DNA from: Terfezia claveryi
Taxonomy: Eukaryota > Ascomycota > Pezizomycetes > Pezizales > Pezizaceae
Direction of reading: 5' to 3'
DNA: 64,000 bases
Assembly (NCBI GenBank): GCA_015179025.1
Contig: WHUX01000017.1
Span: 248,001 to 312,000, forward strand
The first letter of the stretch is position 1; each line of letters opens with the position of its first letter. A program made the translations under genes and the position numbers. Of the stretch, positions 9,873-61,351 are shown in pieces. The notes beneath the pieces are model-generated. The model made no database searches. It was not told where the DNA came from and saw only the letters and a list, made by a program, of their open reading frames with translations.

Positions 9873-9922
9873 GGCGGACGTAGGTAGTCTGGTTCGGCGA
9901 ACGTAGTCTGGTTCGGCGGACG
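9873..9922 (+). repeat. Two TAGTCTGGTT inserts alternating with GGCGRACG repeats
   Basis: The order is GGCGGACG (9873-9880), TAGG, TAGTCTGGTT (9885-9894), C, GGCGAACG (9896-9903), TAGTCTGGTT (9904-9913), C, GGCGGACG (9915-9922). This looks like two serial insertions of the same short sequence into an 8-bp target that was duplicated each time, with one base difference. Confidence 0.8.
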
Positions 9923-10062
9923 AAGCAAATATGTACCGCTCCGGAATAGGCACCGTACCGGGTAGCCCTTATCCAACAATGGCAAATGAGACGACAGTCA
10001 TTCTATAGCTACAATACCTTAGTCTCAGAGGTGCAAGAGTCGAATTCAGCTATGGAGGGAGT

Positions 10063-10078
10063 TGTGCCAACCAGACTA
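10063..10078 (-). repeat. TAGTCTGGTTGGCACA copy, minus strand
   Basis: On the minus strand this reads TAGTCTGGTTGGCACA and matches the 46357 copy over 16 nt. No flanking duplication is seen here. Confidence 0.8.
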
Positions 10079-10246
10079 GAAATCAGGTACCACTTTGAAT
10101 TCTTTATATGGAAGGAGTGAGTCGCTTGTGCGAGGCCAGCCAGGTCATTTTACGCTATGGATCTGTCGAGCTGTCGAACTGTCGCGCTGTCCTGTCAACC
10201 TGCCGCCAAGGCCAGCCTTCACCGTTTTCGGACGTAGGAGCTGTAT

Positions 10247-10275
10247 GACGGACGCCAACCAGACTAAGACGGACG
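10247..10275 (-). repeat. TAGTCTGGTT insert flanked by GACGGACG repeats
   Basis: GACGGACG at 10247-10254 and 10268-10275 flanks a 13-nt segment (10255-10267) containing AACCAGACTA, which is TAGTCTGGTT on the minus strand. Confidence 0.85.
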
Positions 10276-10774
10276 GTTTCGGATTGTAGCTCAACCAGCT
10301 GGGACGCACCGCTGAGACTCGTTGACGCGGTGACACGACTACCAACGCTTGTCGGCCATTCGCATGGAGGCCACCCGCACGCCCAGTCATGTGCAGCGAG
10401 CATCCGCGAAGAGAGAAACAGGGCCTATGCAAGCCGGCAGACCGGCGAACCGGCGAACAGCGACAGTCTCCGTCCCGCTAATCTATCTCGAACTTGACAG
10501 ATTCGGCAAGCTACCGTGACCCCGGCAGCCTTGCTTCCTTGTACGGCATCTCATCGGAGTTCCGGATCAGAAGCTATTCCCGATCTGCTCACAAGAAGGA
10601 TTAGGTCTAGCCTCGTAGCTGTCTTTGAGTCATCTGGCATATACTTTTAGCCCCAGCAATAGCACAGCAACTGATAAACGAAACACATTCCTTCAGCATC
10701 AAGCAGATCAAAATCGTCGACATCATCACCGCTACTCCAGATCCCAGCCACATCATTGGCTCCAACACCCCATC

Positions 10775-12357
10775 ATGCCTGGACAACGCACTGGCCACCT
10801 TGTGCGCGTCCCCCGCACAGACATGGACAGTCCCAACGATTTTGTCCTTCTGCGTGTGAACCCATCATCCCAATCTTCGGCACCTCTAGATGCATATCTC
10901 CTCGCTACCGAAGGAGAGGCTGCCTATGGGCTCAAGAGTACGCCAGCATGTGGTTCTTCTGCTACCCTCAAGTCAACTAATGCTCGACTTGCGTAGTCAA
11001 TAATTCTGGTATTCATAAATTCCTGCACAAAGCTTTTACTGGCACGCATGAAGAGTTCAGGGCAATACTTTCCTCGCTGCTGCTTGGTACTCCAGTAAAG
11101 GGCGAAGATAAGCGACTACTAGAAGGGTTTGGCACTTCCGCAACAATCGAGGGTGGGACGATCACGGTATGCACGGACTATATGCACGATGATGGCGGGG
11201 TATGGTAGACCGTGCTTGGCTGATGATGATTGAAACTAGCTTGCGGTCAGAAAATCAGTGGGTGGTATCAAGGTATTAAATCCTCAACCATATTCAAGGT
11301 ACAGCATCAACTAATAAATTTGGAGGCATAGCAACGTATAGCAGCGATAAACATTCCACAGACAGAGGATGAGATCGAGTTGTATAACTGGGTGGGAGAG
11401 GCTTGTATGGCTAGGGATGAAAGCGAGGTATGCATCATATCCTCACAATCACAAATGTTCATTAAGGGTACTCATTTTTGTGTAGTCTAAGCTTCAAGCC
11501 CAGGAGAAAAGAGTCAATGAGCTGGAAAAGGATGTCGAAAAGTTGATTACTCAGCTCAAGGACCTAAGAAACCTGAAAAAGGAGCACGAAGATGCAATGC
11601 TTGTGAAGTTTCAAGAACTGTTAAACAGCAAGAAACAGCATATTCGAGAGCTGACAGGACTTGTAGACGCCAAAGGCAGGCAAAATAACCCGATAGGTTT
11701 GTCGTATATTGCCATCTCTACACCCTTATCCCCAATAGTGAACATAGATTTGACATTACCGCTGACTGAATTGCTTAACTAGTTCCAGACACAACTCCAG
11801 AAGCTGCACCTTCCAAAACTACGGCGAAGGGAAAAAATCCACGGAAACGTGCCGCTGCACCCGTAGAGGAAGAAGATGAAAGTGATGGGGACTTTGCTAT
11901 GGCTATCGATAAAGCTGACGATGACGAAGAAGATGAAGTGGACTCTGACCAACGGTCTGACCCACGGACGACAGAAGACGAGGCAGAAGTAGAGACTTCT
12001 GGGGATGAAGAGCCCCAACATTCTGCTGCAAAAATCAAGAAGAAACCAACTGCTTCAGCCAAAGGCAAAGGAAAGGCAGCTACCACCGCTGCCAGCCGCA
12101 GGAAAGCATCCAGTACATTTGCGCCTGCCAAAACCCCGGCGCGATATACAAGGGCTGGCTCGAAGAAACATACCACTGCTAAAGCCGCTACGGCAACCCG
12201 TGGCCGGGGCAGACCCAGAGGTAAACAAACTGTCAAAACACCAGAACCTGAAGAGTCCGCCGGTGAGAAGGCATCGTCCCCGGAGCCATCGCTGCCGCCT
12301 GCACCACATGAAGATAGTGATGCTACTGCAGGTGCAACGGATGATGATGAGCTGTAA
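10775..12357 (+). CDS. XRCC4: XRCC4/Lif1-like non-homologous end-joining factor
   Basis: Probable partner of DNA ligase IV in double-strand break repair, acting in the nucleus. Six exons fit in phase: 10775-10937, 10997-11166, 11240-11272 (33 nt), 11332-11427, 11486-11696 and 11783-12357, giving 415 residues. The N-terminal head contains HLVRVPRTD, FVLLRVNP and LLATEGEAAYGLK, then FTGTHEEFRAILSSLLLG and a VRKSVGGIK strand. A long charged coiled coil follows (KLQAQEKRVNELEKDVEKL to FQELLNSKKQHIRELTGLV), the usual ligase-binding stalk. The tail is acidic then lysine/alanine-rich and contains an RGRGRPRGK segment resembling an AT-hook. The ATG at 10775 was chosen because upstream in-frame sequence looks non-coding. 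The head-plus-stalk order argues for XRCC4 rather than XLF. No frame problem is seen. Confidence 0.85.
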
Positions 12358-15042
12358 AATAAAATACCAACATATCATAGGACCCTTCCAGATACGGGGC
12401 CTTGGCAGGGACAAGCGTTGCTTGGTCACTTGTTTGAGCAGGGTGCACTAGAACCATTTACTGAAACGCATTGCCCACCGTGGAGAAGGCGTTATTTTGT
12501 TTGGCTTCTGATGATGCAAGATACAACAACATGGAAATACAGTCCTAGTCCCAGAACAGTCTGTCCAACTCCACTCTCATGGCTTCTGGATTTCGTACAT
12601 TAGCCCCATAGAGTTCTCCCCATGATTATCAGCGGGCCTTAGGCAACCAAGCTATGATACCTGCGTCCGCTGTGGGCGTATTAGCCAATCCCTTTTGTTA
12701 CTAGTACCCACTGCCTTCGTTTTTGCAAGCCATGGCAAATAGAGAATCCCTTACAATTGCTGTGCTTTTAAAAGCGCATCCTGCCTTTCCTGAGGATTCC
12801 CTGACCCTAGCTCTTACCCAGGAGGCGCCTGTCCCTTGCAGCCCGCTTTGTTCGATTTTGACTTACTTTTGCTACCACTGGATTTTGTGAATATTGCCGA
12901 CTTTGGTACGATATTTTTGCCAGATAAATTGTTGGTGTTTACTATATTCTACTTGTAAGAATAGAACGGTACTTATCTCAATAGCAAGTCCGAGACCAGA
13001 GATTACTTAGTATATTTGTATCAATGGACAACATGTAAAAGTCCCATTCAGGCCGTCCCGATACTAATGATTATTTTATTTGCATACCCCAGAGTAATGA
13101 ATATTAATACGAGGACAAGGGGCAACCCGTGTGTCAATAAGGGTCGGAGCACCATGATTCTACATTGATCGTAAATCCACGTTTGTCTATTATTATGATC
13201 AAGAGCTCGAAATACGCATTGAGCCTTGTTGAAGCATTTTCATCGCGACCAGCCTCTTACATGGGTTACCTGTTCCCGGTCACCGTGACCCAAATGTCAA
13301 GCCTTTTCGACAGCATCTATAAGTATTGTTTTACCCGCTGCAGTTGGACGTCAATGTCACCATGTGTGCTGATGCCACTCCCTCCCCAGGGTCCTCAGGC
13401 TCTCATGACTCGGCTGCATATGTGGAATGTGGAAATCCCAATCAATACTAGGTAGTTACCTACCTACTGTCGGCTGTGATGCCAGTATTCGGAGTGTATT
13501 GAATCATGCATGGAATATTCGATAGGCAGTGCAGTACCTACATGGCTGAAGCAACATCTTGCTCCAGATACCAGACTAAGGTTTTTTGGGGACATTGGTA
13601 TGGCGACATCTAGAGAATGTAACTGGCCAGATTATCTATCATATTAGATTATGGCGAGAGAGCTGTTGTAATGCTTATAGACAGCACGGCAGTATCAGGC
13701 GTGCCTTTTCCCCTCTCAACCGCACAGCAATCGTATTCTAACCTTCAGTGTTCGAAATAACTCACAAAACTTCTCTGCAATTCAAGGCCTCCCATAGAAC
13801 CAAAAAAACAATACCTCACGGGCAGTGGTGTAACTCTTGTAGGCACCCTAGTGTTTTCGCGTGTGGACGTTTAATTGAATGATACTTATTGTTATGTTTG
13901 TCGTCCTGATCAGTTACCGATACGAACGATACGATACCTCTTCAAGATACCGAAGATACCGCTCTTCCCTCTCCTTGAGGGCATGCGATATCTTCAAAAC
14001 ATACGCCTCCTCCCATTCATTTAATCTTCACACTTCATCTCGCCTTCCTTTATCTGGATCTGCCCCCAGTGAAATAATATAAAGTATATCTTACGGAATA
14101 GGCGTCGCCAATTCATTCCCCACATCTGTGATCGAGTCCTCTAAGGCGCCAACAACCAGCCAACCACACCTCAGCCCCGGGCACCATCTGCCCTCTCACA
14201 AGCCTCCTGAGGCATCCTGCATCCTTAAGAGGAGCATTCTGAAACCATTTTTGGGGGATTTCAGTGAAAGCCCCACACATTCTTGTTTGCTGCACTTGCT
14301 TGCTATACCCCAGCTCTCCACTCTCCCTCCAACGATCGAAGCGAGAGTCCACTGGCTGCTGGAGTAAAGGCCGAAGAGCATCACACTTGGTAAGTCCCGT
14401 CCCGCCGCACGCTGCTGCTGAGCCCTGGCATCGTTCCCCCATCACCCTCGAAATTTGGGGATTACTCCCCAGCGGAGGACCGCGGTGGTTCTGTACTCTG
14501 GGCAGAGGAACAAGCAGCAAATCTCGAAGGATTCTAAGTAGTCTGGTTAGATTCTAAGCCCGGCTGACTGATGCCTGACATGGTCTCAAACAGGGCTCAC
14601 TAGGCTAAGCAACGCATCGCACCACGTCTGCTGGGTCAAAGAAAGGCCGGGATTTGCAACTGGCACCCCTCGTCACTCCTCACACCCTCACACCCACCTA
14701 ACGGTACTGCCACCAAACACCTGCAACCCAACAGGATTACCTCGTTTCGTTTCGTTTTCTTGTGACGATCCAGCAGCTTTTACGACCATTAGACACCGGC
14801 GCTGCAGACGCAGACGCCTCGAATAAAAATACCGGTCGGCAACCCGACCGACGAGCCCGGGCTAGGGGACACAAAAAGTGGAATCACGTTCCTGTCTCAA
14901 GAAACGCGACGCTCCACTCGGCATCCCACAAACCTCGATCTTATCCGGCGCAACATAAGCTTTACCGATCTCCAACCACAGTTATCATTTCACGATCGTT
15001 TTAAAGTCAGGCCGGGTCGGAGTCAGCGTCGCCGCGAGTCTA
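12358..15042. other. Intergenic region
   Basis: Between two plus-strand genes. No open frame shows recognisable protein features. One TAGTCTGGTT insert with a perfect 9-bp duplication lies at 14530-14558. The last few hundred bases are the likely promoter of the proline-rich gene. Confidence 0.6.
14530..14558 (+). repeat. TAGTCTGGTT insert with 9-bp duplication GATTCTAAG
   Basis: GATTCTAAG (14530-14538), insert TAGTCTGGTTA (14539-14549), GATTCTAAG (14550-14558). The flanks are perfect direct repeats. Confidence 0.9.
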
Positions 15043-17957
15043 ATGGCTCAAGTCTCAGCAACTTCTGTGGCAGCGGCGGCCGGAATCGACGACGAAGATA
15101 TCGGTGCGCGCATCGCCCGATTGGGACTTCCATCGAAGCCAAATGTTATCGGCAAGACTATGATGGCAGCGAACTGCCCCCATGTGGGTGTATGTTGCTA
15201 CTGTAATGTATATACAACAATGCTGGAGAGACCAGACATGGCAAACATACCAGACAGTCCAGAGCGGGTGGAATCCCAGCCCACTACCACTACCACCACG
15301 ATCATGAATGCCACCACAACGACCACCAGCAGCAACAACATCTGGAGAGATGAGAGAAGGGCAGCTACGGCAACACCAAGGGGGAATACAAGGGCTACTG
15401 TTGGATCTGGGACTTTGACCAATGGAGCTACAAAGTCAGCACCAGGAAAGAAGATTTCTTTGGGCCAGTACGCAAGCCAGAAGAAAGACAGGGCGAATGT
15501 ATTAGCCCAGCGAGAGTCAAAGTCGCCGACGCGGGGAGAAAAAAGGTGGGGCATGTTTTTGCGATTTTACATTTTGAATTGAGCTAATGAGCTTTGCAGA
15601 CCAATCGAGCGCATCACTCCCGATGTAGTGCCCGAAAGGAAACCGGACCGGCGAGAAGATGCACGCGATGCTCGGCAGGATAAGGCCGGGAATCTACCCA
15701 AACGCCAAAGGACTCCGACATCCCCCCACCCACCACCGCCACCACCTCAAGCAAAAAAAGAACACCCACCGCCACCTCCTCCAGTAAAAGATCCGCCACC
15801 CCCACCTCCAGTAAAAGAGCCACCCCCACCTCCTCCGACAGCGGAGAAACCACGGCCAGCCGCAGCACGCCCGCGCCCTCCATCGCCACCTCCACCACAA
15901 CTACCACCTCCACCTCCACCTCCACCTCCACCTCCACCTTCACCTTCACCTCCGCCTCCACCACCAAAGAAGCTACCTCCCATGATGAGTCCGACACTAC
16001 CAGCTGTTTTGGAGGAAGCATTGGCGAGGGAGAAGGAGACTAAGGAAGGAGCTGCAAAACCATTACCACCGCTGAGCCCTACTCTCCCACTGGTCCTGGA
16101 GGAAGCTCTCGCAACGCTGGGCGATAGTCCAAAAATCATGCGCTCTGGAATTACCGCTGCTAAAAGGGAAGCATCTGTTGACGATACAATAACGCTGAAA
16201 CCGTCCAAGGCAATGCTCCAAACAGCAGGGAAAGGTGCCAAAGGTACTGCGAGCGCGACAACTAAGAAAGGTGCTGTTTCGAAAGCAACAGCATCACCTA
16301 CCAAACCCACCTCTTCCCAGCACCTCAAGGTACCAGGTGAGCCCAAGAAGCAGCTATCATTGAAGAAGGTAGCGGCAGAAGTCCCGGTTGGAAGGATAAA
16401 GAAACGGGAAGTAAGTGAATCTCCTGCAAAGCATGCTTCAAGTCCGGCTATGACAGCCAAGAGTCGGTCTGGTGGTTGCGGTGAGCCATCAGAAGACGAT
16501 ACTTCAGATACCGAGCCCAAGTTGTCAAAAATTGTCAAGCTTAAGTTCAAGCACCTAAAGTGGCGCTATGAAAATTTTGTGAAGCTTACAAGAAATTCCA
16601 AGGACAAGGTAGCGGAGCCGGAGAAAAGACCTGGTTCGGGCGTTGCGGGGAAATCGACAGGGAAGAGGATACGCGAAGCTGAAGATAGGGAGCGGACACC
16701 TGTACCAAAGAAGCTGAAGATGGAGAAGCCGCAATTTGAGATCAAGAGTGAGAGGGTAGGAATGGTGTCGAAAGGCAATACTCCAGTGAAGTGTGTAGAT
16801 CTTCTTCCACCAGTGAAGAAAGAGAAAGCCACTGCGGAAAAGACTGCAGTATGGCGGGCAGAGAGTAGGAATGGGGATATGCCACTGGTCAAGGTGAATA
16901 CTGGAAGGACGGCAACTCCTGTACCGTCGAGAGATACTGGAAGGCTGGCCACGCCTGTGCCGGTGGTGAAGAAAGAAGGAAGGCCGGACGACGCTAGGAT
17001 TGAAGGGCGACCTAGGAAGGTTTCAACCTCCCAACCTCCTCCACAGTTGGATTCTGTGGCAATTGCAAAGGCAGAGGCATTCAACCAAGAACATCTCAGG
17101 TATCAAGATTTCGGCAAGAGGTTGAAGCACGAGGCGGAGGGTAAAATTCAGTCAGACCGAGTAGAGAATGATGAGAGATATGCTAAATTACTACTACTCG
17201 ATTCGATCTTGTATATTTCCCCATTTCCCGAGAATACAATCTACACTGTTTTTGGATGACTAATCATACGACAGGTGTTATATTGTTGCGTTCTTGTGCG
17301 AAGAGGAGGCAAATATGACTAGAGCTATGAAACTTAATATGGAATCTTGGAGGTCGATTATGCCCTATCTCCGAGTTGTACTGGGGCGGTGTAAGGACAT
17401 ACTCCCACTATATGGACTTGGGTAAGTTACATAATTCTTATCTCAATGATTACTATTTGACATCTATCAGGAAACTCCTCGAAGCCGTCATCCTTCAGCA
17501 TCTTCTTGCCCTTGACATTGATCGCTTCGAGAAAACGCCTTTTCCGGACGCTGCTCCCCTAACACCGGAAACTGGCATTGCCTTAACACCAAACCCTCAC
17601 GCCGCGACTGGAGCTGGAATACAAGCTCGCGAACATTTCTCCTATTTGAAGAACCAGATTATTCGGTCAATAAGAGATACCCATGCTGCATGGACAGAAG
17701 CGAATTCAGTCATGACGGTTGATGAGCTAAGGCGGTTCAAGAAGACTTGGGACAAGAGGGCAAGTAAGCTGGCATCGGATAGGCATAGGATTAGGCAAGC
17801 AGGATTCTATAAGAGCGAATTTAGCTTGCCACTCCATGTGAATAGTTCTCTGCTGGAGGCAGTGAATTTTGGCTGCAGCTTTTTGGCTGAGTGGAGTGCT
17901 GAGGTTGGGCTGGCGTCGTGGGAGAGTAAAGTGAAATTGAAGGAGCCATTGAAGTGA
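15043..17957 (+). CDS. Proline-rich nuclear-type protein with conserved fungal C-terminal helical domain
   Basis: Function unknown. Four exons fit in phase: 15043-15545, 15600-17210, 17275-17421 and 17471-17957, giving 915 residues. The N-terminus has a Cys-rich patch (NCPHVGVCCYC), followed by a polyproline stretch encoded at about 15725-15970 with repeated VKDPPPPPP and VKEPPPPPP blocks. A basic, serine/threonine-rich middle contains KLKFKHLKWRYENFVKLTR. The C-terminal third is ordered: YQDFGKRLKHEAE, LLLLDSILCYIVAFLCEEEA, then SWRSIMPYLRVVL, LLEAVILQHLL, FKKTWDKRASKLA and LEAVNFGCSFLAEWS. I recall similar C-termini in uncharacterised ascomycete proteins. A distant likeness to the AF4/FMR2 C-terminal homology domain is my inference only. 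Low complexity and basic stretches suggest a nuclear, possibly transcription-linked protein. Confidence 0.8.
15739..15966 (+). repeat. CCA/CCT-rich polyproline-coding repeat
   Basis: Imperfect CCA-CCT trinucleotide array inside the proline-rich gene. It codes for runs of proline interrupted by VKD, VKE and charged residues. The frame is kept across it, including a six-C run near 15721. Confidence 0.9.
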
Positions 17958-19948
17958 TGAGGTGAATAAAGTGGCTTGGGAATGGAAGGAGAAAAGTGGA
18001 GAAAGAGGTTTAGGTTAAGTGGTGGAAGAAAAAGAAATAGTGGGAGAGGCTAGGATAAGGGGTGGTAAAGAAGAAGCAGGTGGGGAACAAGGCTCTTGGG
18101 CACAAGGTTCTGGGGCTTGACTTCGGGTGGCTCGAGTACCTTTTCGCAGCCCAGTACTAGATCCTGTGGCTGTTGATAGTTTTCTTTTCCTACTGGTGTT
18201 TGGTTACTCATTGTCTCTGAATTTTGATTTAGTCTACGGAGGTGGCGTCATTTTTGAAATCTCGAGTTTGTTTTTTTCAGTTTGGGATTCCAGTTTCTAT
18301 TCTTTTGATTCAACGAATTATGCATGGAGCTATCTGGATTTTACTTTTTTACTTTTCCTCTGGGCTGTTCATTGCTATAACTTTTCATTTCATTACATAT
18401 ATCCTTACCTCATGTCTTGGTTGTGAAGATTTAGTTTGAGAATTTTTGAAAGCGGTGTTGGTTCGAGGAAGGTGGTCAAATTTAGGGGATGGAGTATACT
18501 AAGCTCCCCCTAGCTTAGTGTTCCCTTCTGTAGTTCTTGCTATTCCCCTTTCTCTCTTCCTCGGAAACGTCTCTTCGACACCAGCCAGCGAAGAATCCTC
18601 GAACGGGAAGGCGAGTTTGGAGGTACATGTGTGTGTTGGGGATGAAGTATGATTTCTAGGAGTCATAATCTTTGAATTTCGGCGTAGTTTTCTTTGATTT
18701 TATCTCAGATTTTATTCGTAATGTTCTATCTATTTCCTCTTACTATAACCTGGCTCTCGCTGCCGTAATTCGATAGTTTTTCCTTGATTCGAGGCTGTGT
18801 GCTTGAGGGTTTGGGCCAATGGACTGTGTTGCGGTGAAGTGAAAGAAAATAATTTTTTTAAGGCGTTGTGCTTTTGCTTTGGGGTTGCGTTTTGCGTTTG
18901 CTTTGATATATTGCTATGGTTTCCATGATGAATGGGGTTTCTTTGAATTGTGCTACATATTACCCTGATTGGAGCGGGCTCGCGCCTTGGTTCTCTTTTT
19001 GTGTGAATAGGTGTGTAAGGGATGGGTGTTGTTGATATATTTGTGGGGATTTGGATTTGCGGTGTGTGAGAAGGGCCGTGTGGGGTATAGATCTAGTAGT
19101 TGGGGTGCTTCAAGTAACTATCAGGATACGGAATTGTCTAGGAAAGAGATGTGCTTTGCTGCACTTTGCATCTTGAATTCATGCTCATGTTTATTAGAGT
19201 GGCGGGGATCTCTTTTGTTCACCTGGAATTCTGCTTCACACGGTTTGGGACATGGTGTTCGGGGATTGCTGTATATAGAATATTACCGGTATCATGAATG
19301 TTCTGACTGCCCCTACTACGTGGTTAGAGAACAACTTGTACTGCCGCCGACAGTGATTTATATATAGTTCCGGCCGCTAGATTGTAGATGTAGCAACTGC
19401 TCCATAGCTTACAGGTTCTATAGAACTTAACTCATGGTTTTCATCATATTTTTTTCTAGGAGTACTCGAACAAAGCTTGGAGTAAATCTTTTACTCTGAG
19501 GGCAGCCTATTGTTCAAATTTGTATGGGGCTTGGCACGTTTTGAATTTGGCACCGAGCTGTATACCTCCAGATAGTTACTGTGTGATCTTCCACTATATC
19601 CGGTGTCGGGGATAACCAAAGTCGGGATATATATTTTAGCAATTGGCACGAATGTTTTCACAGATGGGCCATACTTACGAATTGTATATGTTTGTAGCGC
19701 TTACAAGTCCTGGCGTACCGGGTAACTACTTATGTACTTCAACCTCAATTGATCCTGCAGGGTCCATAGAGGGTTTCAGGATCCAAAAGTATATATTTAT
19801 TTCTATACCTCGACATCAGCTTCAATCAGTCTAATTTCCATTTCTCTTGTTTCTCTAATACCCTTCCTTTCCTTTCGTTTGATTTATACCCCGTCCACGT
19901 ACTACACACTGCCTGCATATATATCCACTTGGATCTTTATACCCTCCA
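17958..19948. other. Intergenic region, T-rich
   Basis: Downstream of the proline-rich gene the sequence is T-rich, with no protein-like frame. It probably holds that gene's 3' UTR and, near its end, the promoter of the Nudix gene. Confidence 0.6.
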
Positions 19949-21307: not shown

Positions 21308-21785
21308 GTTGCTGGCTGTGGGGTGGGGAGGGGGCGGGAGCGGTGGCGGTGTGTGAGTTGTAAAGGAAGGGTGGGATTAGGTTTGTGGGGAAAGGGTAAT
21401 CTGGAGGTGTAAGAGGGAGGGGGGTCCGGTTGAATGTATACTTGGCTCGATTATCCAGCCCCTTTTCCTTCTTTTCTTTTCCTTTTCCTTTTTTACGCTA
21501 GATTGATACTCCGTACCTACATAGATAGATATAGAGACGCCAGCGACATAGTAATCACTTCGCTATACTTTTGGTTTAGTTAATTTCTTTTTCTTTTACC
21601 CTGAACTGGGCTTCCCGTGAGATGACTAAGCCCGTCACCCTCCTCTTGCTAAACGTTAGAATCTCAGGTGCCTTTGTCGACATCACGCACCTGCATTGAA
21701 CGCTCTGCAGATAGAACCACCACAACCACGAACCGATCACGTCGACCAAACCCGCGTTCTTGTCTACTCGCACAGCCGCGCAGAA
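21308..21785. other. Short intergenic region between Nudix gene and SF3B2
   Basis: Purine-rich then pyrimidine-rich DNA, presumably the Nudix 3' UTR and the SF3B2 promoter. An in-frame ATG at 21696 could extend SF3B2 by 30 residues, but the added residues are not family-like. Confidence 0.5.
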
Positions 21786-30288: not shown

Positions 30289-30318
30289 CTTTTGTCCCAA
30301 CCAGACTACTTTTGTCCC
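30289..30318 (-). repeat. TAGTCTGGTT insert with 10-bp duplication CTTTTGTCCC
   Basis: CTTTTGTCCC (30289-30298), AACCAGACTA (30299-30308), CTTTTGTCCC (30309-30318). The insert is exactly 10 nt and the flanks are perfect 10-bp direct repeats. Confidence 0.92.
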
Positions 30319-30343: not shown

Positions 30344-30353
30344 TAGTCTGGTT
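30344..30353 (+). repeat. TAGTCTGGTT copy without visible duplication
   Basis: Exact 10-mer lying 35 bp from the preceding copy, in the opposite orientation. No flanking direct repeat found. Confidence 0.8.
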
Positions 30354-31221
30354 GCACTACCCCTCGCAGCTAAGCCTCCCAAAGATGCATAACCAAACTT
30401 TTTTGACTACAGTTACCCTGAACCGGAGTGATATGGATAATCAACTCCCAAAATCGCATATCTCTAGATCTACTTCCATCCCAGCTCCTCAAGCAACGCC
30501 CCTGGAAGACTGCCCCCTACTATACATCTTATTATCGGGTCACGGGCCTAATGTATACCATAGGTTTCCACTACTATGAACGGGTAAATGGCTTCAAATA
30601 GCTTCAGCCTAGCTGCCTTGTTGCGTTCTTTGAGGATTATCCATAGAAAATCTAGTGTTACAGCAACCTCAAGCTCATAGTTTTGAGCCTACCAACTTCA
30701 GATTAGCAGAAAGCTCCATAGTTACCCTGATCCGACAAACCCCTGGGTAGCATTTCCTCAATTAGGCGCTCGAAGAGTTAGGAGCACTTCAGAATGCAGG
30801 CCAGCCCTCTCATACACACAAGTAATGCATTATATTATTATCAAGTCAATGGGTGAGATGAAGTGCTTCAAGTTCAGATTTATTTCTTAATCTCGAATAT
30901 ATAAGAGAAAAAGCTGATTGAGAGGAGTAGAGTGGAGTTTTAACCAGCTAAATGTGAGAAAACCCGAGACATGGAAAATAGAACATTTAGACACAAAAGG
31001 AATCATCGCCGCCCAGAATACTTTATACAAGTAAAAAACAAGATCGTGGTAAGTAGCACTCCACAAGGGGAAGGTACATTATAATATTTCGTATGCAAAT
31101 CCCAAGCCTTCTATAATTCCCCATACGAAGAACGAATTGTTCCAAAACATCGACGTAACAAGATAGTTCAACCGCTCAACAGCCTACATAAGAACCTAAA
31201 ACGCCTTACGAAAGAGGACGC

Positions 31222-40111: not shown

Positions 40112-40139
40112 GGTAGTCTCGATCAGACCCTCGTAGAGG
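40112..40139 (+). repeat. 28-nt repeat identical to 61316-61343
   Basis: Perfect 28-nt identity with a site 21 kb away. It starts GGTAGTCTCGATCAGACC. The sequence to its left (ATTTCGG) resembles that to its right (TTTTGGT), so a decayed duplication is possible. Confidence 0.85.
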
Positions 40140-40164
40140 TTTTGGTTAGTCTGGTTGTTTTGGT
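40139..40164 (+). repeat. TAGTCTGGTT insert with 8-bp duplication GTTTTGGT
   Basis: GTTTTGGT (40139-40146), TAGTCTGGTT (40147-40156), GTTTTGGT (40157-40164). The left repeat abuts the 28-nt repeat, so two events may be nested. Confidence 0.9.
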
Positions 40165-46347: not shown

Positions 46348-46380
46348 AGGCGATCATAGTCTGGTTGGCACAGGCGATCA
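46348..46380 (+). repeat. TAGTCTGGTTGGCAC insert with 9-bp duplication AGGCGATCA
   Basis: AGGCGATCA (46348-46356), a 15-nt insert TAGTCTGGTTGGCAC (46357-46371), AGGCGATCA (46372-46380). This is the longest insert of the TAGTCTGGTT type here. Confidence 0.92.
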
Positions 46381-46391: not shown

Positions 46392-46419
46392 AGTTGTCAC
46401 TAGTCTGGTTAGTTGTCAC
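46392..46419 (+). repeat. TAGTCTGGTT insert with 9-bp duplication AGTTGTCAC
   Basis: AGTTGTCAC (46392-46400), TAGTCTGGTT (46401-46410), AGTTGTCAC (46411-46419). Perfect, and only 11 bp from the preceding duplicated insert. Confidence 0.93.
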
Positions 46420-46698: not shown

Positions 46699-47039
46699 TT
46701 AGTACATTCTGCTCTTTGTGCAACCAGGATCATTGTCGCCAGACTAGATCATTGTAAAGTTCTACAATTAAAGACAAATTACATATGTGCTGCAACGGGG
46801 CACGCTTAGCGTCACCGGCTTCCTGCGCGCATGCATCCCACCCGACCCAACGCAGCGTAACGCGAAACCCGTTACAGTAGACCCCAGGCCGCGAGACACG
46901 CAGAGGGGAGAGCATTGCCCGTTGATTTGCACAGCTACCAAAACGAAGCAGTGCGGTCATTCGCCTGTAAAATCGTTGCAATCGCCCGCCGTGAGTCGTG
47001 CAGAATAGAATTGAGGGCAGGAGTGCAGAAGGAACGGGC

Positions 47040-51813: not shown

Positions 51814-52909
51814 ATGGAATACACATCCTCAATCCCTATCACAATGGCGGAGCCCCCGCCACCAGGGAACCTCTCATCATCGGTACCCTCAAACCCAAGA
51901 AACGACGATGACATCCCCATCCTCATCTCGCACCGTTCAGCAACCCACACGCTCCATCTGCCCCCCACCTCTACCATCTCCGACCTCACTATCCTCATCG
52001 AATCCACCTTCTCTATCCCCCCAGCCTACCAAAAACTCCTCGCTCCAAAGCTCGGCATCCTCAAAGACCTATGCTTACCAATCACTTCCCTTCCAGCTGG
52101 GAAGAAACTAACACTCATGGGTTCCTCTCCTACGGAGGTAGCCTCCGTACAAAATGCCTCAAAGAGTGCAAAATCCAACATCCGCCGTTTCGGTGGGAAG
52201 GGTAGTCCTATACCTGCGGCCCGCCCCGCGCCTAGGGCATCTATCGATCCAAAACGGGCTCATGACGACGCAGTTTACACTTTTCTCGAACTGCGACCCC
52301 TTAGATACCTTCCAAACCCAGAGAAGAGTCTAAAATACCTAGAGCGAGTCCGCGACGACACTGGTATCCGCGCCGTCATGCGAAGGTATAAATGGACCGT
52401 CCCCTTATTACTCGAAATGAACCCCGCGGAACACACTACCCACGAATCCAAAATCCTCGGGCTCAACCGGAATAAAGGGGAGGTCATCGAGCTACGTATC
52501 CGGACAGACGATTATGGGGGCTATAGGGATTATAAGACTGTGAGGAGGACAGTGGTCCATGAGTTGTGCCATAATGTTTACTCGGGGCATGATCGAAATT
52601 TTTGGGACTTGTATAGGCAGCTGGAGGGCGAGATGGGCAGAGCAGATTGGAGTCACGGGGGAAATAGTTTGGGCGGGGAGTTTTATGAGCCACCTGGGGG
52701 AGGGTATTTGGGGTTGGTGGGGGAAGGGGAGGTGGATGAGGGTGGGTGGCGGGGGGCAAATGGGTGCTTGGGGGGAGGGCACGAGGGAGGGAGAGGGGTT
52801 GAGTATGAGGGAGGTGTTGTTGAGGGCGGTAGAGGAGAGGATGAAGGGCCAGAGGGGTGGTGGTGGGGGAGCAGGGACGGGAGAGGGGAGCTCGTCGGGC
52901 TTGTCATGA
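51814..52909 (+). CDS. Ubiquitin-like plus WLM-domain metalloprotease (Wss1-related)
   Basis: Related to fungal ubiquitin/WLM proteins that clear DNA-protein crosslinks and SUMO-modified proteins. Residues about 30-110 form a ubiquitin-like region (ISHRSATHTLHLPPTSTISD to GKKLTLMG). The WLM domain follows, with FLELRPLRYLPNPEKSLKYL, LLLEMNPAEH, LGLNRNKGEVIELRIRTDD and the zinc site VVHELCHNVYSGHDRNFW. After DEGGWRG the frame drifts into glycine-rich text. Two single-base additions, in G6 at 52751-52756 and G6 at 52770-52775, give GGKWVLGG and then LSMREVLLRAVEERMKG, the usual family continuation, ending at 52909. Total about 365 residues. Without them the unshifted frame ends at 52998. The ATG at 51844 is an alternative start. 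Single exon. Confidence 0.85.
52751..52775 (+). other. Two single-base frame breaks in the WLM gene
   Basis: G6 at 52751-52756 and G6 at 52770-52775. The short span between them reads KWVLGG in the middle frame. LSMREVLLRAVEERMKG follows in the third frame. Confidence 0.7.
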
Positions 52910-53444
52910 AGTTGGGTTATAGAGGGTCGAAGAGGGGTAGTAGATTGCAGAAGGTTGAAGAGGAAGTAGACTTTGAACATATTCTATATTTAGATTGAGC
53001 AGGTATCTTTAGGCTTTTTCTAAGGAGGGCATTCAGCAATTCAGCATTTGAGGTTTAGATTTTCCCTGAGGGTAGATAATTAGCATGGCTAATCTGTAAT
53101 ATCTGGTTTTATATACTACTATATTTAATACAACGCAGTGGATATGGTTCTTGAAATGCATATACATTTACTGAACAAGCCATGAGGACAAGCGAAGGAG
53201 GGTTGAAGTCGGGTGCTGATCTTCAAGGGGGTGTTTATGCATATGGTGGTATGTACATATGAGATAGTTATCCTAGCCTAGGACTATATCACAGATAGGT
53301 CCCCAGGTTCAACATTGAATATAACATAAGCCCTGCATTCAGACGGCTATGATTATAGTTGAGGAATGAGAACAAATGCACATGGAGTACATAGATAACA
53401 CAACGCGAACACAATTCACTAACCCTAACAGAGAGTACTAACAG

Positions 53445-53482
<38 letters not shown>
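53445..53482. repeat. ATT trinucleotide microsatellite
   Basis: About twelve ATT units in a row. Confidence 0.92.
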
Positions 53483-53555
53483 CTTTTTTTGCATTCCGTG
53501 AAAACATTACGGGGATATATCTCAGCATAACGTTATGTATGGATGTACTCTGTAC

Positions 53556-53556
<1 letters not shown>

Positions 53557-53606
<50 letters not shown>
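53557..53606. repeat. ATGT tetranucleotide microsatellite
   Basis: About twelve TATG units, similar to the arrays at 2563 and 46629. Confidence 0.92.
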
Positions 53607-53608
<2 letters not shown>

Positions 53609-54521
53609 GTAGGTATACAAAACCCCTAAATCTTCTGCAGAGTGTGGCTTTTTAACGGTTATAGGTTACTTTGTATATGTAGAGAGAAAAAGACCTAAAA
53701 AAAAACCTGAAGACTCGCAGACGGGGCGGTTCTTTCTCCCCATTCCTCCCTCTCCACCCCCACCCCCCTCCCCCCTTCCTTCCACGGCCGGGGGAGGTGG
53801 CGGGGGGAATGGGGGGTGGTGGCTTGTATTTGGTTCTATCTAGAACCTATAATATCGATATTGAGGGTCACGTAGCAATTTGATTGGGTGGATGAGAAGA
53901 GAGGAGGGGGGAAGGTGGCCTTATTTACCCTGAAACAGCCTTCCCCCGCCTCCCCCCCCTCCCCCACCCCGCACTTCGATAATTTGTTATAATTCACATA
54001 ACTCTTCAGTAAAAGTAAAAAAAAAAAAAAAGGAAACTTTAGTGAAAATTGAATTAGATGTGATTTGATATACTGCAATTGACATCGTTTTCAGTTTAAG
54101 TCAATGGGGGAGAGAGAGAGGGTGGGGGGAGGAAATTGGTTGGCCCATAATAGTGCCCCCCCCGTACATGTAGATCAGCGAAGCTGTGTCTCGTAACACA
54201 ATTTCCATTTGGGGGACACGGTGGGTCTTTCCACAAAGTTTTAATTGGCATGTATACTTTCAAATTATTGTTATTTACTATTATCTACTTATGATACAAA
54301 TACCAGATAATTAGGCTGTAGACTATTAAAAAATGGGTACAGATTGGAAACCCCACAAAATCTTTTTCTAGTCTGCTAAAAGAGACAACCCAGTAAAATC
54401 TAATCTATACATTCCTTTACAGAGTATAACCCTCAATACTTGAAATTCCTCCTTTCCCAAACAACCTACCACTATTCCAGCACCGTCTCCTAATTCCACT
54501 CCCCCAACTCCTGCTCCTCCT

Positions 54522-57092
54522 TCAACTCGAACAACTACACTGCAGTCCCCTCTCTGGCTTCGGCGGATCTCCACACCACCGCCTCTCCAACTCCTCATTC
54601 CAACCCCAACTCTCCCTAAACGGATCAAGTACCATCTTCATCAACCCCGGGAGTACCTCCCTATCCTTCTTCTTCTCCACCAAATCAATCACCTCCTGCA
54701 GCACCCAATTCCTCGCCACAAAATTCGGATTAACATGTAGCATCTTCTCCCTCCTCTCCTCATCCCCGAAGCCGACGTTATCCCGTTCCTCAAGTTGGAG
54801 CCGAGTTCGGTATACACCACCTAGCCATTCAGCGACCATTTCTTGTGCACCCTTCCACCCCTTCCCGGCGTATCGTTCGCCTTCTTGGAGGAATACTTCT
54901 GAGGCGGCGAACCACTTCTCCTTCGTATCCAGACTCAATACAGGGATGTGGCTGAGCTTTCTAAAAAATCCGTTGAAATCTAGCTCTAAAACTTGGAGCA
55001 ATTCCAGCGTGGGGGAGATAATCTGATCTAGATCCTCCTCGCGGGGAGCTTGTAATCCCAGCCTAGCACAGAATGTCGAGATGTATTCCGCCTTAAAAAC
55101 GGCCTTATATTCCTCTCCCGCAAGCTCGATCTGCGCTTCAGCCCGCGGGACGAGCTTCTCCATCTCAGGCCGGGAGAGAGATTTCTCGATGAATTCCTGG
55201 GTGTCGCAAAGACCACCGGAGCCAAAGAGTTCGGCGAGATCTTCGGCCAGGCGTACGAGGTTCCACCAGATTACGGTGGGCTGGTTGTGGTAGCTATAGC
55301 GTTTCATGAAGTCGTCGTGGTTGGGGGTGAACTGTGGGTCGAAGTTCTATCAACTCAGTCAGCTTTCGCCTCCCCTTCTGCCTCTGGGTTAAATATTAGC
55401 CACTCACATCCATAAAACTAAACGGCCCAAAATCCAAGCTCAACCCCATAATATGCGTGTTATCCGTATTCAACACCCCATTCATAAACCCAAAACACTG
55501 CCACTTGGCCACCGTCCTCGCATTCCTCCTCACAATCTCCCTATACAATCTATGATATCTATTGATATAATCCACACCAGTCAAATTCACCTCCTCTGGT
55601 CGGGGTGGGACGAGATTCTTCTCTCCACCGAAACATTCGTCGATTACGTAGTCTGCTAGACGGCGGAGATTTTGCCGATCTCCGCGCCACCGGAAGATGT
55701 CGAACGAGCCGATGCGGATCCAGGTGGGTGCGAAGCGCGTTACGATTGCGCAGGGCTCGGCACGCTCGCGAACTGCCTTTTTGGATGGGAGGAGAGTTAG
55801 GGCGAGGGCACGGGTGGTGGGGATGCCGAGAGCATGGAGAGCTATATGGAAGAGCCTAGGTTAGCTTTTTGGATAAAGGTGGGGAGGAGGGAGGTAAGAA
55901 GAGGAGGAGAACCTTCTGAGACGACGAACTCTCGGATACTGGATCTTAGGACGGCTTTGCCATCTCTGTGGTGTATTAGATTATGGCGATGATGGGGGAT
56001 ATGGAGGGGGGTGGGATAACAGACGCAAATCGTGAGTAGGGAGTTATTCCTGCCCCTTTGAGTTGTACTTCATACCGCTGCCCGGTTTTTGGGTTGGTAC
56101 ACTCGAATAAGCTGATGGCTCGCTGTGGATTGTTATGAGTTAATTTCTCCGAGGATATATTACACACAGGGCTGGTCTGCACATACTCCATCTCCGAGCT
56201 GCCCGGCCCATTGACCGCTGTAGTTCATCCCAGTCTATTAGCTTTCTTTTCAATCATGCGGTTGACATTGCCCACTACCAAATGGTATTCAAGGACTAGT
56301 GCTGAGGGTGACGAGGTTGATTCCGAGAAACTGAAGTTCTCCACGGTAGGCTCATGCTGGGGATTGAAAATATAAGGAGATCTCAATGGCTTACAATTGC
56401 CATCCTACAAACCCCCCCCCATAGTCCCATATTAGCCCGCTACACTATTTCATATACTCCAATATCTCAGGATTGTAATATCAATTCCTTCATCCAACCT
56501 TCCGAGGGCCATACCTCCATAAACTGTCGCCCATGGCATGATCCCGCCCACAAGCAAGTTCCCCGCCATCAAATGCTTGAAATTCTCTCTCTTCTCCTCC
56601 CCTGGCTTCAGCCCCAGCGTCCTCATCGCATCCTCACTAACAGCCAGCAACTCGGGATGTGGCTCTCTCCCCTCCGGCATCACCCACGTAAACATCGCCC
56701 CTCTGACCTGTCGAGGGCCAAAAGCTTCCCTCGGTGCATGCTGTGACTCCTCTGGGGTCGGGAATTCCGGGTCCGCTAGAAAGCCATAATCAGCAACTCT
56801 CTTTCCTGACAGCTCGACGATGGGTATATTGCATACGAATATGCGACGCCGTAAAAACACTGCTCTTTGGCAACTCCTCAATCGAGTACCCCTCCTCATG
56901 ATTATCTAACAGTGGCGCAGCCGCCCCAATATCATCCGTTTTCATGACCACAGCCGTACTCATAACTCGAATACCGTATCGAATACCGTAACTCGCTGGT
57001 ATACTTGTAGGTGTAAACGGTCGGTAGCTACTGCCTATTAACCGAGGAAATATCGATGTCGTCAACGTACGAAATTTCCAGCAAATTAACAT
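54522..57092 (-). CDS. FMP40: SelO/Fmp40-like mitochondrial protein AMPylase (UPF0061)
   Basis: Pseudokinase-fold enzyme that transfers AMP to proteins; the family is linked to redox and mitochondrial stress. Eight exons fit in phase: 57092-56837, 56775-56515, 56404-56395 (10 nt), 56217-56187 (31 nt), 56122-56025, 55965-55913, 55841-55408 and 55346-54522, giving 655 residues. Motifs include LPKSSVFTASHIPDPEFPTP, VYGGWQFGQWAGQLGDG, FECTNPKTGQRYEVQLKGAG, PYSRFADGKAVLRSSIREF, the metal/nucleotide region GVLNTDNTHIMGLSLDFG and the C-terminal CSCSS. No selenocysteine codon is indicated. The first 43 residues from 57092 look like a mitochondrial presequence (basic, no acids). A downstream ATG at 56963 would give a shorter form without it. 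Confidence 0.93.
56395..56404 (-). other. FMP40: 10-nt microexon of the SelO gene
   Basis: Sense-strand GATGGCAATT sits between acceptor TTTGTAG and donor GTAAGC. Joined to the flanking exons it completes GGWQFG inside the conserved YGGWQFGQWAGQLG motif. No other choice of splice sites restores both frame and motif. Confidence 0.85.
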
Positions 57093-57439
57093 CCGGAGGT
57101 CTTGAATTCCCACTCGCCCAGATAAATAATTTCTCGCGAGCTTCTACGGTATGTCGTCAGACTTCCAACAGTGCAAGTGAATGGATATATAACCATGACA
57201 AATCTAGCATCTACATTAGAGGTCAACCCTATGACATCAACTTGGCGTATTCCCATTCTATGATCGCTGCTAGATAGGCGAAAACTCATATGATATATTG
57301 CGACAAAATATATGTAGATGAACTCCACCCCAACATAGGCCATTTAATGTTCAAATAAAAGGGAATGTGAGGGAATGAGCGTAGAAAAATAAAATAAAAT
57401 AAAATATGATATCTAACTCCATAATCTATCGTGCAGATT
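57093..57439. other. Short intergenic region, SelO / sugar transporter
   Basis: SelO promoter and transporter 3' UTR. AT-rich, nothing else seen. An ATG at 57113 could extend SelO by seven residues. Confidence 0.5.
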
Positions 57440-59429
57440 CTAATCATCAGCCCCCGCCTCCAACCGTCTATAGTCACCACCGGATCCATTGTTCTTCTTA
57501 ACAAACACTCGAGAAAAGAAACCCACGGTGCCTGTTAGGCTGTTTCTGGGCTCGTCCATTACGGGTGGCTCTAAATGGTGATCTTCAATAGGTGACCGGT
57601 GGCGGCTCTGAGGTAGTAGCGCTTCCCTACCAGTTGACTCCCCTTCCTGAGTATAGTGATCTCCGAAAATCGCATCCATGTCCTCGAGCTGTACACCTTT
57701 GGTCTCGGGATAAATAAAGTACACTTTAAGGATATTAATGTTAGAATAAATCTCAGACGGTTGCCGAGGCTTTGATCTCACCTAGAACAAAACTACATGC
57801 GCAGAAAAAGGCATGTATAAGATAGAGACGCCATGTGATCAATTCCTGTAGTATGGGCGTCATTTCGCCTACTACCCAGTTGAATGCCCAGTTTGTCGCC
57901 GTGGAAAGCGAAGCACCCTTTGCTCGGATACTAAGAGGAAGGATCTCTGGTGGGTAAAGCCTAGAGAAATATTAGCAGTGATGATAATGCAAACAGGATG
58001 GGAAACTAACCATGGTACAGGCCCCCATGAATAGCCAAAGAAGGCATTATATATGACTACTGAGACTACAACAAGTCCTGGTGTCTGTGGAATGTTAATG
58101 TACATCAATCCTGAAATTGCGGACAATGCAAGAACCATGACCACTGCACCAGAGAGCAGAATAGGCCTTCGACCCCATTTGTCGACAAGATACCACCTAA
58201 AAGAGATGTTAGTATACTCGCCTAGGTAAAAAATTGTTGTGGGCCTTACGGTGGAATGGTACTAGCCACATATACTATCCCATTGATACCAGTCATCAAA
58301 ATGGCATCTCGGCCAATCCATCCAGCTTGCTCGAACACCAATGGTGCCTTCAATTTGTCAACTCATAATCCGGGATCAAGAGCCAGGGAAACATACATAA
58401 TAAGAGATGACGTTGATTCCGTTGAGCTGTGCAAAAGCCTGAGAAGACATGGCAATAATCAATCGTCTCTTATATCTTCTCCACATTTCAGAATAACTCC
58501 GTTCCCCCTCTTGCCTTGTCAATAGCACGTTGAGTTTGATTTCCCGGAACTCCTGCCTGGCCTTCTCGTTGCTGGTATCCCCACCTCCGTGAAGGTTAGC
58601 AATTACGCGAATACCCTCCTCATCATGGTCGTTGTCAAGCAGCCATCTATCTATACATGTAAGAATGTGAATCCGATAGCAAACAAACTGTGCACTCTCT
58701 TACCTTGGTGATTCTGATATGACCGTCGAGCCAACTGCTAGCAAAAATCCCATGACACACTGCATGAATAGAGGTATCCTCCAAGAATAGTCACTCTCAA
58801 TCCAAGTGCAAGCATAATCAACCCATACACTGGATGCATATCCAACAATGTTGCCTGTGAATTCGATACACGCAAGCTTCCCCCGATTGTGTGGTGGGGA
58901 AATCTCAGATTGGTACACAGGCACGATCGTGGATAGAGCACCAACACCCAGGCCAGCAATAACACGACCCAATATCATTGTCGCTAGACCTGTGCTGGAT
59001 GTCTGGAGGGCCCCTCCAACAACAAATATCATTGATCCATATAAAATAGTCCTCCGCCTTCCAATAATATCACCGACTCGACCAACGATCAGCGATGAGA
59101 TGAATGCGCCAACTTCCAAAATAGCTACCATAGTGCCAATCTCAGCCCTTGTGGGATTATCAAAATATGCCTTGAAGTAAGGCCCTCTTCAGCAAGGTTA
59201 GCGGTGAATTACGGCACAAGGTGGGAAATGAATGACCCACGTTATGATTCCTGACATGACACCCTGATCATAACCAAAAAGAAACACACCTAAACTAACA
59301 AACACACTCGTGAAATACCTGTACATTTTGTGAGCCTAGATAAGTTTACGTGCTAAAAGAGAATCTAGCATACAATAAGGGCTTCCCAGTTAGCCCAAGG
59401 GCCGTTTGGTCACCATTACCACCGATCAT
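57440..59429 (-). CDS. MFS sugar transporter (fungal hexose-transporter type)
   Basis: Twelve-span sugar:proton symporter-family protein of the plasma membrane. Exons fit in phase: 59374 upward, 59318-59241, 59186-58704, 58646-58397, 58347-58250, 58196-58011, 57960-57782 and 57723-57440. Motifs: GVFLFGYDQGVMSGIIT, RVGDIIGRRRTILYG, GLGVGALSTIVPVYQSE, the ESPRWLL loop, QLNGINVISYY, WYLVDKWGRRPILL and FIYPETKGVQLEDMD, all sugar-porter signatures. The 5' end is uncertain. The ATG at 59429 is the only in-frame one nearby and gives 537 residues, close to family size. The frame stays open for more than 90 further codons upstream, with protein-like acidic and serine-rich text and no ATG. So a longer N-terminus from an unseen first exon is possible. 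Substrate cannot be told; glucose or related hexoses are likely. Confidence 0.9.
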
Positions 59430-61070
59430 AATTCTTGCAAGAAGTCTTGTTGCCTTTGATGGTTGTTTATGCCGTGGATTCGGGACTACTATATCGTCTA
59501 GAGTAATCTTCTCAGACAATCCCGGGCCATCAACAGATGAATTCGAATTTCTTCGGCGGCCGACCCCTCTGCTACTCGCTAGACTCGTATCTAGATCCGG
59601 CTCCTCCTCAGGACTTACCCCACCTGTCACACTCCAAGGCGAGAATTCCGAATCGGATAAGTTCCGAAAGCTATCGTTTTGGAAGCTCTCCTCAAACTTG
59701 GAATGACGTCGATTCAGTTCGGTAGCAGCTGATGATGCTTCTCTCAGGTTACTAAGGGGTATGTCGAGAGTACGTTTTCCAGTTGAGGGCGGAATCGTGA
59801 AGGGTTTGTCGGCTGAAGCACAGCCGGTGCTTGGTTTTATGGCTGAGTCCAGGAGTTCTAAACAATGTTTTCTCTAGACGACAATCTGTCCGCACAACAG
59901 GTAAGCAGCAAAGCACCAAGGGAGTGGATATGGCAGGTGGTGCGTTGGAGAGAGTCAAGTGACCCTGAAAAATGACTGTTTTGTGCAGGAGGAAGGGAGG
60001 AGAGCCGTGTTGTTCTATGTGCTAATAAAGGAGGGCCAAGAGATGTGGTGAGACCAGGTTTGATCTGCGTCTTTTCACTTGAGCGGCAATACTACATCCG
60101 GCAGAATATAGCAGGAAATGCTGGAAGCCGTTGTGAAGCTGTTGGTGATGCTGGCTGGACCTTGAACAGTACATAGAGAGCTAAGATCTATAGATGGCGT
60201 GAAGGTTGCTCGACCTCAAAGCTGCAGACACAAATACAAGGGCTTAAGCTTATTACCACGCAGCATACGCAGATGTTGCCGTTCAGTGGACCACGTCTTA
60301 TATTGCTCACGGGCGTATGAAACTAAAAAGAAGGTTAAGATAAGCTTCGATAAAATCTGGAGAAACGCGTGCGGGAAATACGTCAGGTCAGCCCGGATCG
60401 TGAGATGCGGCAGCCACCCTGCATCAAGTTTTGACTTGAAGATCGTGAGGTAAACTTCCCTTGATGGCGGAAGTTCAGTGTTATACCCATACCATTCATT
60501 CTCCACGCTAAGTGTGCAACTATAAGGGAATAAAAGGTTTAACCCATCTTTCTGCTCCAGCACGAGGTACTAAGTACTTTGCAGGGCATAATGGGGGCAA
60601 TCAAGTGTTGGCCCAGAACGCTGGGGTTTGAAAAGGAGAGGTGGGCATGGGGACATCATCTGATGAACCGTCCACGAGATACAACGGAGGCTGAGATTCT
60701 ATGATGAGGCATCATCTAGGTATGATCTTCTGGTAGGTTGGGATACTACCAGACTAGGACCGTACAAACTCTCTCAATCTCCTGCAGATGGCTCGGCTTT
60801 ATGAGTGCTAGCACTTACTCGATTCAATCATATACAAGACTGGTACCTAGAAGGCAGATTTGACTTCCGGCTACCGGGCCCTTATGCCATATATAAAGAC
60901 TTGGATACCTTCATGGAGCCGATCAGATTCTCGACGCGGCTTAGAAGTTTATCTATTTAAGAAGGGCACCAGATTGTCGAGCGCCGCGAGTTCAATTTAC
61001 TCCCAAGGCGAGAGCAAATTCAGTCTCTCAGAATGATGTTAGCTTGTTCCACCAAGGCTAATATATACAT

Positions 61071-61080
61071 AACCAGACTA
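61071..61080 (-). repeat. TAGTCTGGTT copy, minus strand
   Basis: Exact AACCAGACTA on the plus strand. Only a weak ATGT echo on both sides, so no clear duplication. Confidence 0.75.
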
Positions 61081-61309
61081 CAACATACTTCTTACAGTGT
61101 GTATGTATGCACTGGATTTACTGGTACCTTCCTCTATGTCAGAATATCCGGGGCCGATATTGCTGAAGTCTTAGGGGTAGTCAGGATTGGTCCTGGGGAG
61201 TACGTCTAAACAAATAGCAACCAAACACTATTTTTCGCGAACGAGACTAGACGTTTGGTTGCTGCCAGATTTGGTCTGGCGAATCCAGCTGGGCCCTAGG
61301 AACGAGTGC

Positions 61310-61351
61310 GCCAAAGGTAGTCTCGATCAGACCCTCGTAGAGGGCCAAAGG
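61310..61351 (+). repeat. 26-nt TAGTCT element with 8-bp duplication GCCAAAGG
   Basis: GCCAAAGG (61310-61317), a 26-nt insert beginning TAGTCTCGATCAGACC (61318-61343), GCCAAAGG (61344-61351). The insert is identical to 40114-40139. Confidence 0.9.

Follow-up and report, generated by a model that had tools for sequence, protein, structure and literature searches.

A recurrent ten-nucleotide terminus in Terfezia claveryi and short inserts that are most plausibly solo-terminus scars of AcademH-like DNA transposons

The 10-nucleotide (nt) word TAGTCTGGTT, which recurs in a 64,000-nt stretch of the desert truffle Terfezia claveryi, an ascomycete (contig WHUX01000017.1, positions 248,001 to 312,000, or C79:248001-312000 in our contig numbering; the whole stretch is called the window here), is a transposon terminus, and the short inserts that carry it are most plausibly solo-terminus scars left by an AcademH-like group of DNA transposons. 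More specifically, we give about an even chance (near 0.5) to TAGTCTGGTT being the outermost 10 nt of the terminal inverted repeat (TIR) of a group of ~9-12-kb transposons that carry a DUF6589 gene, with the inserts being scars of their excision.

The window holds 11 exact copies of TAGTCTGGTT, where 0.13 are expected on average and no more than two occurred in any of 100 shuffles; all 11 lie where a preliminary description of this DNA had placed them, and its chance expectation of about 0.1 is borne out as well. In the whole assembly of 72,558,070 bases the word is present 7,569 times (3,752 + 3,817), against 161 (87 + 74) for the reversed word, so the genome-wide excess for which that description had proposed a check is real. 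Its statement that no copy falls in an exon agrees with the finding that none of the 11 lies inside the 14 listed open reading frames (ORFs) of at least 250 amino acids, a comparison whose scope is unspliced ORFs only. Direct repeats enclose eight of the 11 copies (at least seven had been proposed), including the one at 10069, which was found by eye and then rechecked. The duplications are exact 9-mers at 14539, 46357 and 46401, an exact 10-mer at 30299 and an exact 8-mer at 40147; with one mismatch there are 9-mers at 9904 and 10257, and an 8-mer at 10069 if the insert there is 29 nt long. No clean duplication was found at 9885, 30344 and 61071. The copies and their surroundings are:

9885..9894, plus strand: TAGTCTGGTT terminus copy without a clean 9-nt duplication; the 8-mer GGCGGACG at 9873-9880 is displaced by 4 nt
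9895..9922, plus strand: 10-nt insert (9904-9913) with flanks CGGCGAACG and CGGCGGACG, one mismatch
10042..10086, minus strand: 29-nt insert TAGTCTGGTTGGCACAACTCCCTCCATAG (10050-10078) between the 8-mers CTGATTTC and CTGAATTC, one mismatch, found by eye
10246..10275, minus strand: 12-nt insert TAGTCTGGTTGG (10255-10266) with flanks CGTCCGTCT and CGTCCGTCA, one mismatch
14530..14558, plus strand: 11-nt insert (14539-14549) with GATTCTAAG exact on both sides
30289..30318, minus strand: 10-nt insert (30299-30308) with the 10-mer CTTTTGTCCC exact on both sides
30344..30369, plus strand: 26-nt terminus of the GCAC subfamily, TAGTCTGGTTGCACTACCCCTCGCAG, no duplication found; the 26-mer is present at 76 places genome-wide
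40139..40164, plus strand: 10-nt insert (40147-40156) with the 8-mer GTTTTGGT exact on both sides
46348..46380, plus strand: 15-nt insert TAGTCTGGTTGGCAC with AGGCGATCA exact on both sides
46392..46419, plus strand: 10-nt insert with AGTTGTCAC exact on both sides
61071..61080, minus strand: TAGTCTGGTT copy, no recognisable duplication

A larger sample, drawn from the window, from 20 stretches and from 51 short loci, comprises 130 different TAGTCTGGTT copies. Fourteen of the 20 stretches were picked for listed TAGTCTGGTT hits and loci L041-L091 were cut around such hits, so word densities and the rates of sister words and pentamers are inflated for TAGTCTGGTT; insert length and duplication are unselected. 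Loci L092-L100, picked as near-palindromes, and the transposase loci L029-L040 are excluded from the 130. A 9-nt direct repeat with at most one mismatch flanks 60 of the 130 copies (40 exactly), against a mean of 2.2 and a maximum of 7 for re-paired flanks. Under a looser criterion (at least 7 of 9 matches, and insert lengths of 9-15 or 24-37 nt) the count is 71 of 130 against 4.1 expected, and among the 70 copies that fail the 9-mer test 13 show a 7-mer repeated within at most 15 nt (expected 4.1, maximum 11). When the 40 exact duplications are extended leftwards they measure 9 nt in 31 cases, 10 in seven, 11 in one and 12 in one; since the longer cases match chance extension, a length of 9 nt describes the duplication best. 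The direct duplications of the preliminary description stand, and 9 nt suits them better than its range of 8-10 bp. The 60 inserts themselves fall into two main length classes: two are 6-7 nt long, 28 are 9-15 nt, none is 16-24 nt, 28 are 25-37 nt and two are 40 nt. The first class is close to the 10-15 nt proposed earlier, and the second is an addition to it. Identical inserts recur among the 60 (six inserts of 10 nt and ten of 15 nt), and no clear target-site consensus was found in them, the lowest single-base counts being 7 of 60 at several positions. Four two-ended forms contribute both of their ends, and with them eight of the 60 rows; the other 52 are without a 10-nt right terminus.

Two-ended forms, in which TAGTCTGGTT faces its complement, number 178 at 20-50 nt and 126 at 51-81 nt in the genome, with 0 and 0 in the controls. 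About the first 50 pairs per distance class were listed; some pairs share an end, and some of the 51-81-nt pairs may be two neighbouring inserts. Of the 16 forms of 20-50 nt that were inspected, 11 are flanked by 9-mers that differ at no more than one position, and five are not. Examples are 23 nt (L098), 25 nt (L074) and 50 nt (L092 and L093) long, and there are palindromic ones, perfect in L063 (30 nt) and also in L055 (40 nt). To carry a terminus in inverted orientation at either end is characteristic of DNA transposons.

TAGTCTGGTT belongs to a group of related termini and is not one lone word. The pentamer TAGTC tops all 1,024 pentamers for exact 9-nt flanking repeats 5-40 nt apart (27 of 480 sites, the median pentamer having 1 of 527; the sample is enriched for TAGTCTGGTT), and inserts of like build have other continuations, among them TAGTCTCATG, TAGTCTCGATC, TAGTCTGGCG, TAGTCTCGATCA and TAGTCTCGATCAGACCCTCGTAGAGGG, sister words that the preliminary description does not mention. 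Separately, a tandem array of diverged units resembling CTCATTTGCTCG lies at 4650-5400 in stretch L009 and is probably the source of other high-ranking pentamers. Sister-family sequences recognised in the window are:

40114..40139, plus strand: sister-family terminus TAGTCTCGATCAGACCCTCGTAGAGG without a clean duplication
46728..46755, minus strand: sister-family 10-nt insert TAGTCTGGCG (46737-46746) with GATCATTGT exact on both sides
61309..61351, plus strand: sister-family insert TAGTCTCGATCAGACCCTCGTAGAG (61318-61342) with flanks CGCCAAAGG and GGCCAAAGG, one mismatch

In ~299 kb searched for long elements of the form TAGTC..GACTA with a 9-nt duplication only a 34-nt one was found, so parents were sought with rarer, longer patterns. 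The long terminus TAGTCTCATRCCRAGACYCT is present at 121 places genome-wide, and three widely spaced, inward-facing pairs of it (from 100 places listed) were checked; equal 9-mers bound two of the three, on contigs C242 and C268, and not the pair on C186. A second long terminus, TAGTCTGGTTGGCACAANNCYCTCGTAGAGRG, is present at 63 places, two of which form the C135 pair. The long elements are:

C242:28659-37473: sister-family (TAGTCTCATGCCAAGAC) element of 8,815 bp with the exact 9-bp duplication ACACTGATA
C268:175482-187477: sister-family (TAGTCTCATGCCAAGAC) element of 11,996 bp with the exact 9-bp duplication CATATATTG
C135:449886 (plus strand) and 458969-459000 (minus strand): inverted pair of the 32-nt terminus TAGTCTGGTTGGCACAAGCCCCTCGTAGAGGG, spanning 9,115 bp and enclosing a DUF6589 match at C135:456693-457832

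The C135 pair, known from its termini and its DUF6589 match, is likely a full-length TAGTCTGGTT element; the kind of element that the preliminary description had predicted, bounded by the word on either side, exists as an inverted pair around that match. At C712:117185-120420 two 32-nt TAGTCTGGTT termini also face each other across 3.2 kb, possibly as a mid-sized non-autonomous element. The C242 element, followed in sequence from end to end, has terminal inverted arms of 69 nt that are 93% complementary, a stop-broken DUF6589 frame on the left and, rightward of it, pieces of a helicase on the opposite strand. A fragment of this helicase matches TIGR01389 (recQ) with E=7e-11, far below that model's full-length cut-off, as well as RecQ in the PDB (E=4e-5) and Pfam DEAD (E=5e-5, under its cut-off). 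It has 16 matches in the genome, two of which lie inside the C268 element and are convergent with the DUF6589 gene there (the gene content of C268 is known from such matches). Convergent DUF6589 and helicase pairs ~4-12 kb apart are also present on C117, C127 and C95 (on the last two at 27-28% identity); on C92 and C62 both are present, not in the convergent arrangement. DUF6589 profile matches number 43 on only 22 contigs, and are found inside all three parents (C242, C268 and C135), for which reason we infer that DUF6589 is the transposase. Its two structure predictions, with mean predicted local distance difference test scores of 37 and 34, are too poor for a structure search; a search of the PDB gave no credible relative, and no paper naming DUF6589 was found in the open-licence literature.

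These elements would form a transposon group with 9-bp target duplications, a DUF6589 gene and, in the two sister-family members examined, a RecQ-like superfamily 2 (SF2) helicase. We suggest that an element exits by a staggered cut, one strand being cut flush with the element end and the other 10-15 nt, or about 25-37 nt, inside the element. Repair would then retain one terminal tail and trim the other flush to the duplication, which would give a 9-mer, one terminus and the same 9-mer again; if both tails were sometimes retained, the 23-50-nt two-ended forms would result. Every jump would add scars while the number of elements stayed low. The idea in the preliminary description of a transposon that leaves one terminus behind fits the duplications and the C135 pair well (its assignment to hAT or Mutator is taken up below). 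Excision is ranked above abortive copying, discussed below, because its chemistry has a precedent in the P elements, for which a 17-nt staggered cut at each end is reported (PMC7776569).

Several points weigh against excision. It would presuppose a former insertion at every scar, and the sites are known from one genome. Bare 9-nt tandem duplications do not stand out: there are 10, 7 and 3 bare tandems of 8, 9 and 10 nt, with 1.7, 0.9 and 0.2 in shuffled controls. In rice, 8 of 94 excisions are reported to have left precisely both duplications (PMC4423477), so scars as tidy as these would be unusual. The two length classes require two cut zones, and 70 of the 130 copies are without a 9-mer at one mismatch or less, a remainder in which decay, loss of flanks and chance copies may all have a part. 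Finally, the likely TAGTCTGGTT parent on C135 is recognised by its paired termini and its DUF6589 match, and no helicase was found in it with one C242 fragment as query and with PF00270 scored on 37 of 93 candidates. A variant in which the two ends are trimmed independently and at random predicts many inserts of less than 10 nt; it is disfavoured because TAGTC inserts shorter than 9 nt are nearly absent (at TAGTC starts with exact 9-mers, a scan gave a single insert of 7 nt and a single one of 9 nt below that size) and because bare 9-nt tandems do not stand out. A candidate empty site, L030 compared with L097 and L036, is ambiguous and was not used, as the repeat already holds two copies of GTTACAAGC.

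A tentative alternative to excision, to which we give appreciably less credence, is that the inserts are failed insertions, the DNA-transposon counterpart of a 5'-truncated long interspersed nuclear element (LINE). Both ends would join a target with a 9-nt stagger, the 3' end of the target would prime copying of a terminus, copying (perhaps helicase-aided) would stall at hairpins, and the donor would be cut away and the gap closed. Such a route would give one fixed and one variable end, needs no former insertion at each scar, and with two stop zones would match the absence of inserts of 16-24 nt (0 of 60); the exact duplications at 40 of the 130 copies, the thousands of inserts against 22 DUF6589 contigs, and the helicase matches in two parents also speak for it. 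Predicted pairing begins at nt 11 in the C268 terminus and at nt 12 in that of C242, but the 32-nt TAGTCTGGTT terminus pairs from nt 7, weakly, with a 5-bp hairpin following at 20-32, so that structure alone leaves a stop at nt 10 unexplained. The two-ended forms would moreover demand copying on both sides, and we know of no DNA transposon that works by such a route. The fuller proposal, in which target-primed copying usually aborts after 10-37 nt of one end, stalls in the structured terminus set both lengths, and failures outnumber elements hundreds to one, seems to us more doubtful again. It is unlikely that the inserts are instead ultra-short elements of 10-50 nt mobilised in trans by the transposase of the long element: the two-ended forms that have exact duplications and measure as little as 23-25 nt do resemble minimal elements, and the recurrence of identical inserts would suit them, but 52 of 60 rows have no 10-nt right terminus, inserts of 10-15 nt are too small for two terminal sites, and long parents exist.

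The preliminary description had suggested hAT or Mutator-like elements (MULEs), an origin that we consider very improbable. Both are present in the genome, with at least 150 Dimer_Tnp_hAT and 21 MULE matches; many of the hAT dimerisation-domain matches lie in open frames of more than 250 amino acids, which indicates a large hAT population. MULEs usually make a 9-bp target duplication, in which they resemble the inserts, and hAT elements one of 8 bp, from which the 9 bp found here differs. Neither domain was detected at E<=1 in nine scanned ORFs of C242, where broken frames limit the scan, and the 150 hAT matches listed and the 21 MULE matches all fall outside the elements on C135, C242 and C268. 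Twelve transposase loci of 3.2-3.3 kb each (six hAT and six MULE, from the 171 matches) were inspected, element ends being sought by inverted arms in five of the six MULE loci; within that scope nothing points to a hAT or MULE parent, and TAGTCTGGTT is present in three of the loci (L030, L033 and L040). The one copy in L030 and the two in L033 are short inserts with 9-mers, two exact and one with one mismatch. In L040, a MULE locus on C773, TAGTCTGGTTGG lies at 609 and 3018 inside both 333-nt inverted arms (99% complementary) and not at the arm end; these copies, whose TA end faces the interior, may be due to chance or to an old insertion. The least probable origin is target-primed reverse transcription of the LINE or short interspersed nuclear element kind, from a small RNA ending in AACCAGACUA and with 5' truncation, which would account for a constant and a variable end and is contradicted by a duplication fixed at 9 nt, by the two-ended inverted forms, and by the long sister-family elements, whose two termini are inverted and which have 9-bp duplications.

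The combination of a RecQ-like helicase, inverted repeats and large size in a transposon of a fungus points to AcademH. As membership is judged here by helicase, TIRs and host group, we call the group AcademH-like, and not AcademH. AcademH elements, said to have been presented by Kojima in 2020 in Mob DNA 11, are reportedly Academ DNA transposons with an SF2 helicase. Shared with them are the fungal host, the TIRs (the 69-nt arms of C242) and the SF2/RecQ-like helicase (in C242, with a homologue in C268). The other gene of the group here is DUF6589, which was compared with profile libraries of which none is labelled Academ. AcademH is reported to be low-copy in fungi, and the relevant parts of that account make no mention of solo-terminus scars (PMC10799480). 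Miniature inverted-repeat transposable elements (MITEs) and palindromic mini-elements have in common with our two-ended forms the inverted ends, the target duplications and the lack of genes; they differ in that the forms here go down to 23-25 nt and most inserts are one-ended. Two inverted ends together with a target duplication, which define a MITE, are present in 11 of the 16 two-ended forms inspected, and 52 of the 60 rows are not two-ended. P elements make an 8-bp duplication and have a THAP transposase. The group described here differs from them in its 9 bp, its DUF6589 gene and helicase, and the retention of mostly one end. Among the open-licence matches listed for TAGTCTGGTT none concerns transposons by title, no account of solo-terminus marks in two size classes was noticed among those listed, and a search for Terfezia with MITE turned up a mycovirus review alone.

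The places from which DNA transposons have been excised normally escape recognition, and the number of past jumps is then unknown. Extrapolated from the 130 copies, if these are typical, some 2,000-3,500 of the 7,569 marks would retain a readable 9-bp duplication. For a little-studied transposon group, this would make it possible to test how the DNA is cut, which targets are chosen and how jumping proceeded over time, and past jumps may be countable. The domain DUF6589, whose function is unknown, is also tied to a mobile element. Ordinary repeat annotation is unlikely to pick up inserts of this length. The MAT locus of T. claveryi, for instance, is described as free of transposable elements on the basis of a repeat database (PMC13152902), and such a search might miss marks of this size. 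The transposon itself would add a new member to a kind already known.

At L108 (C176:43500-43980) two adjacent copies of a repeat share a nearly identical cluster of TAGTCTGGTT and TAGTCTCATGCC termini, and because both repeat copies carry nearly the same cluster it was probably duplicated after insertion.

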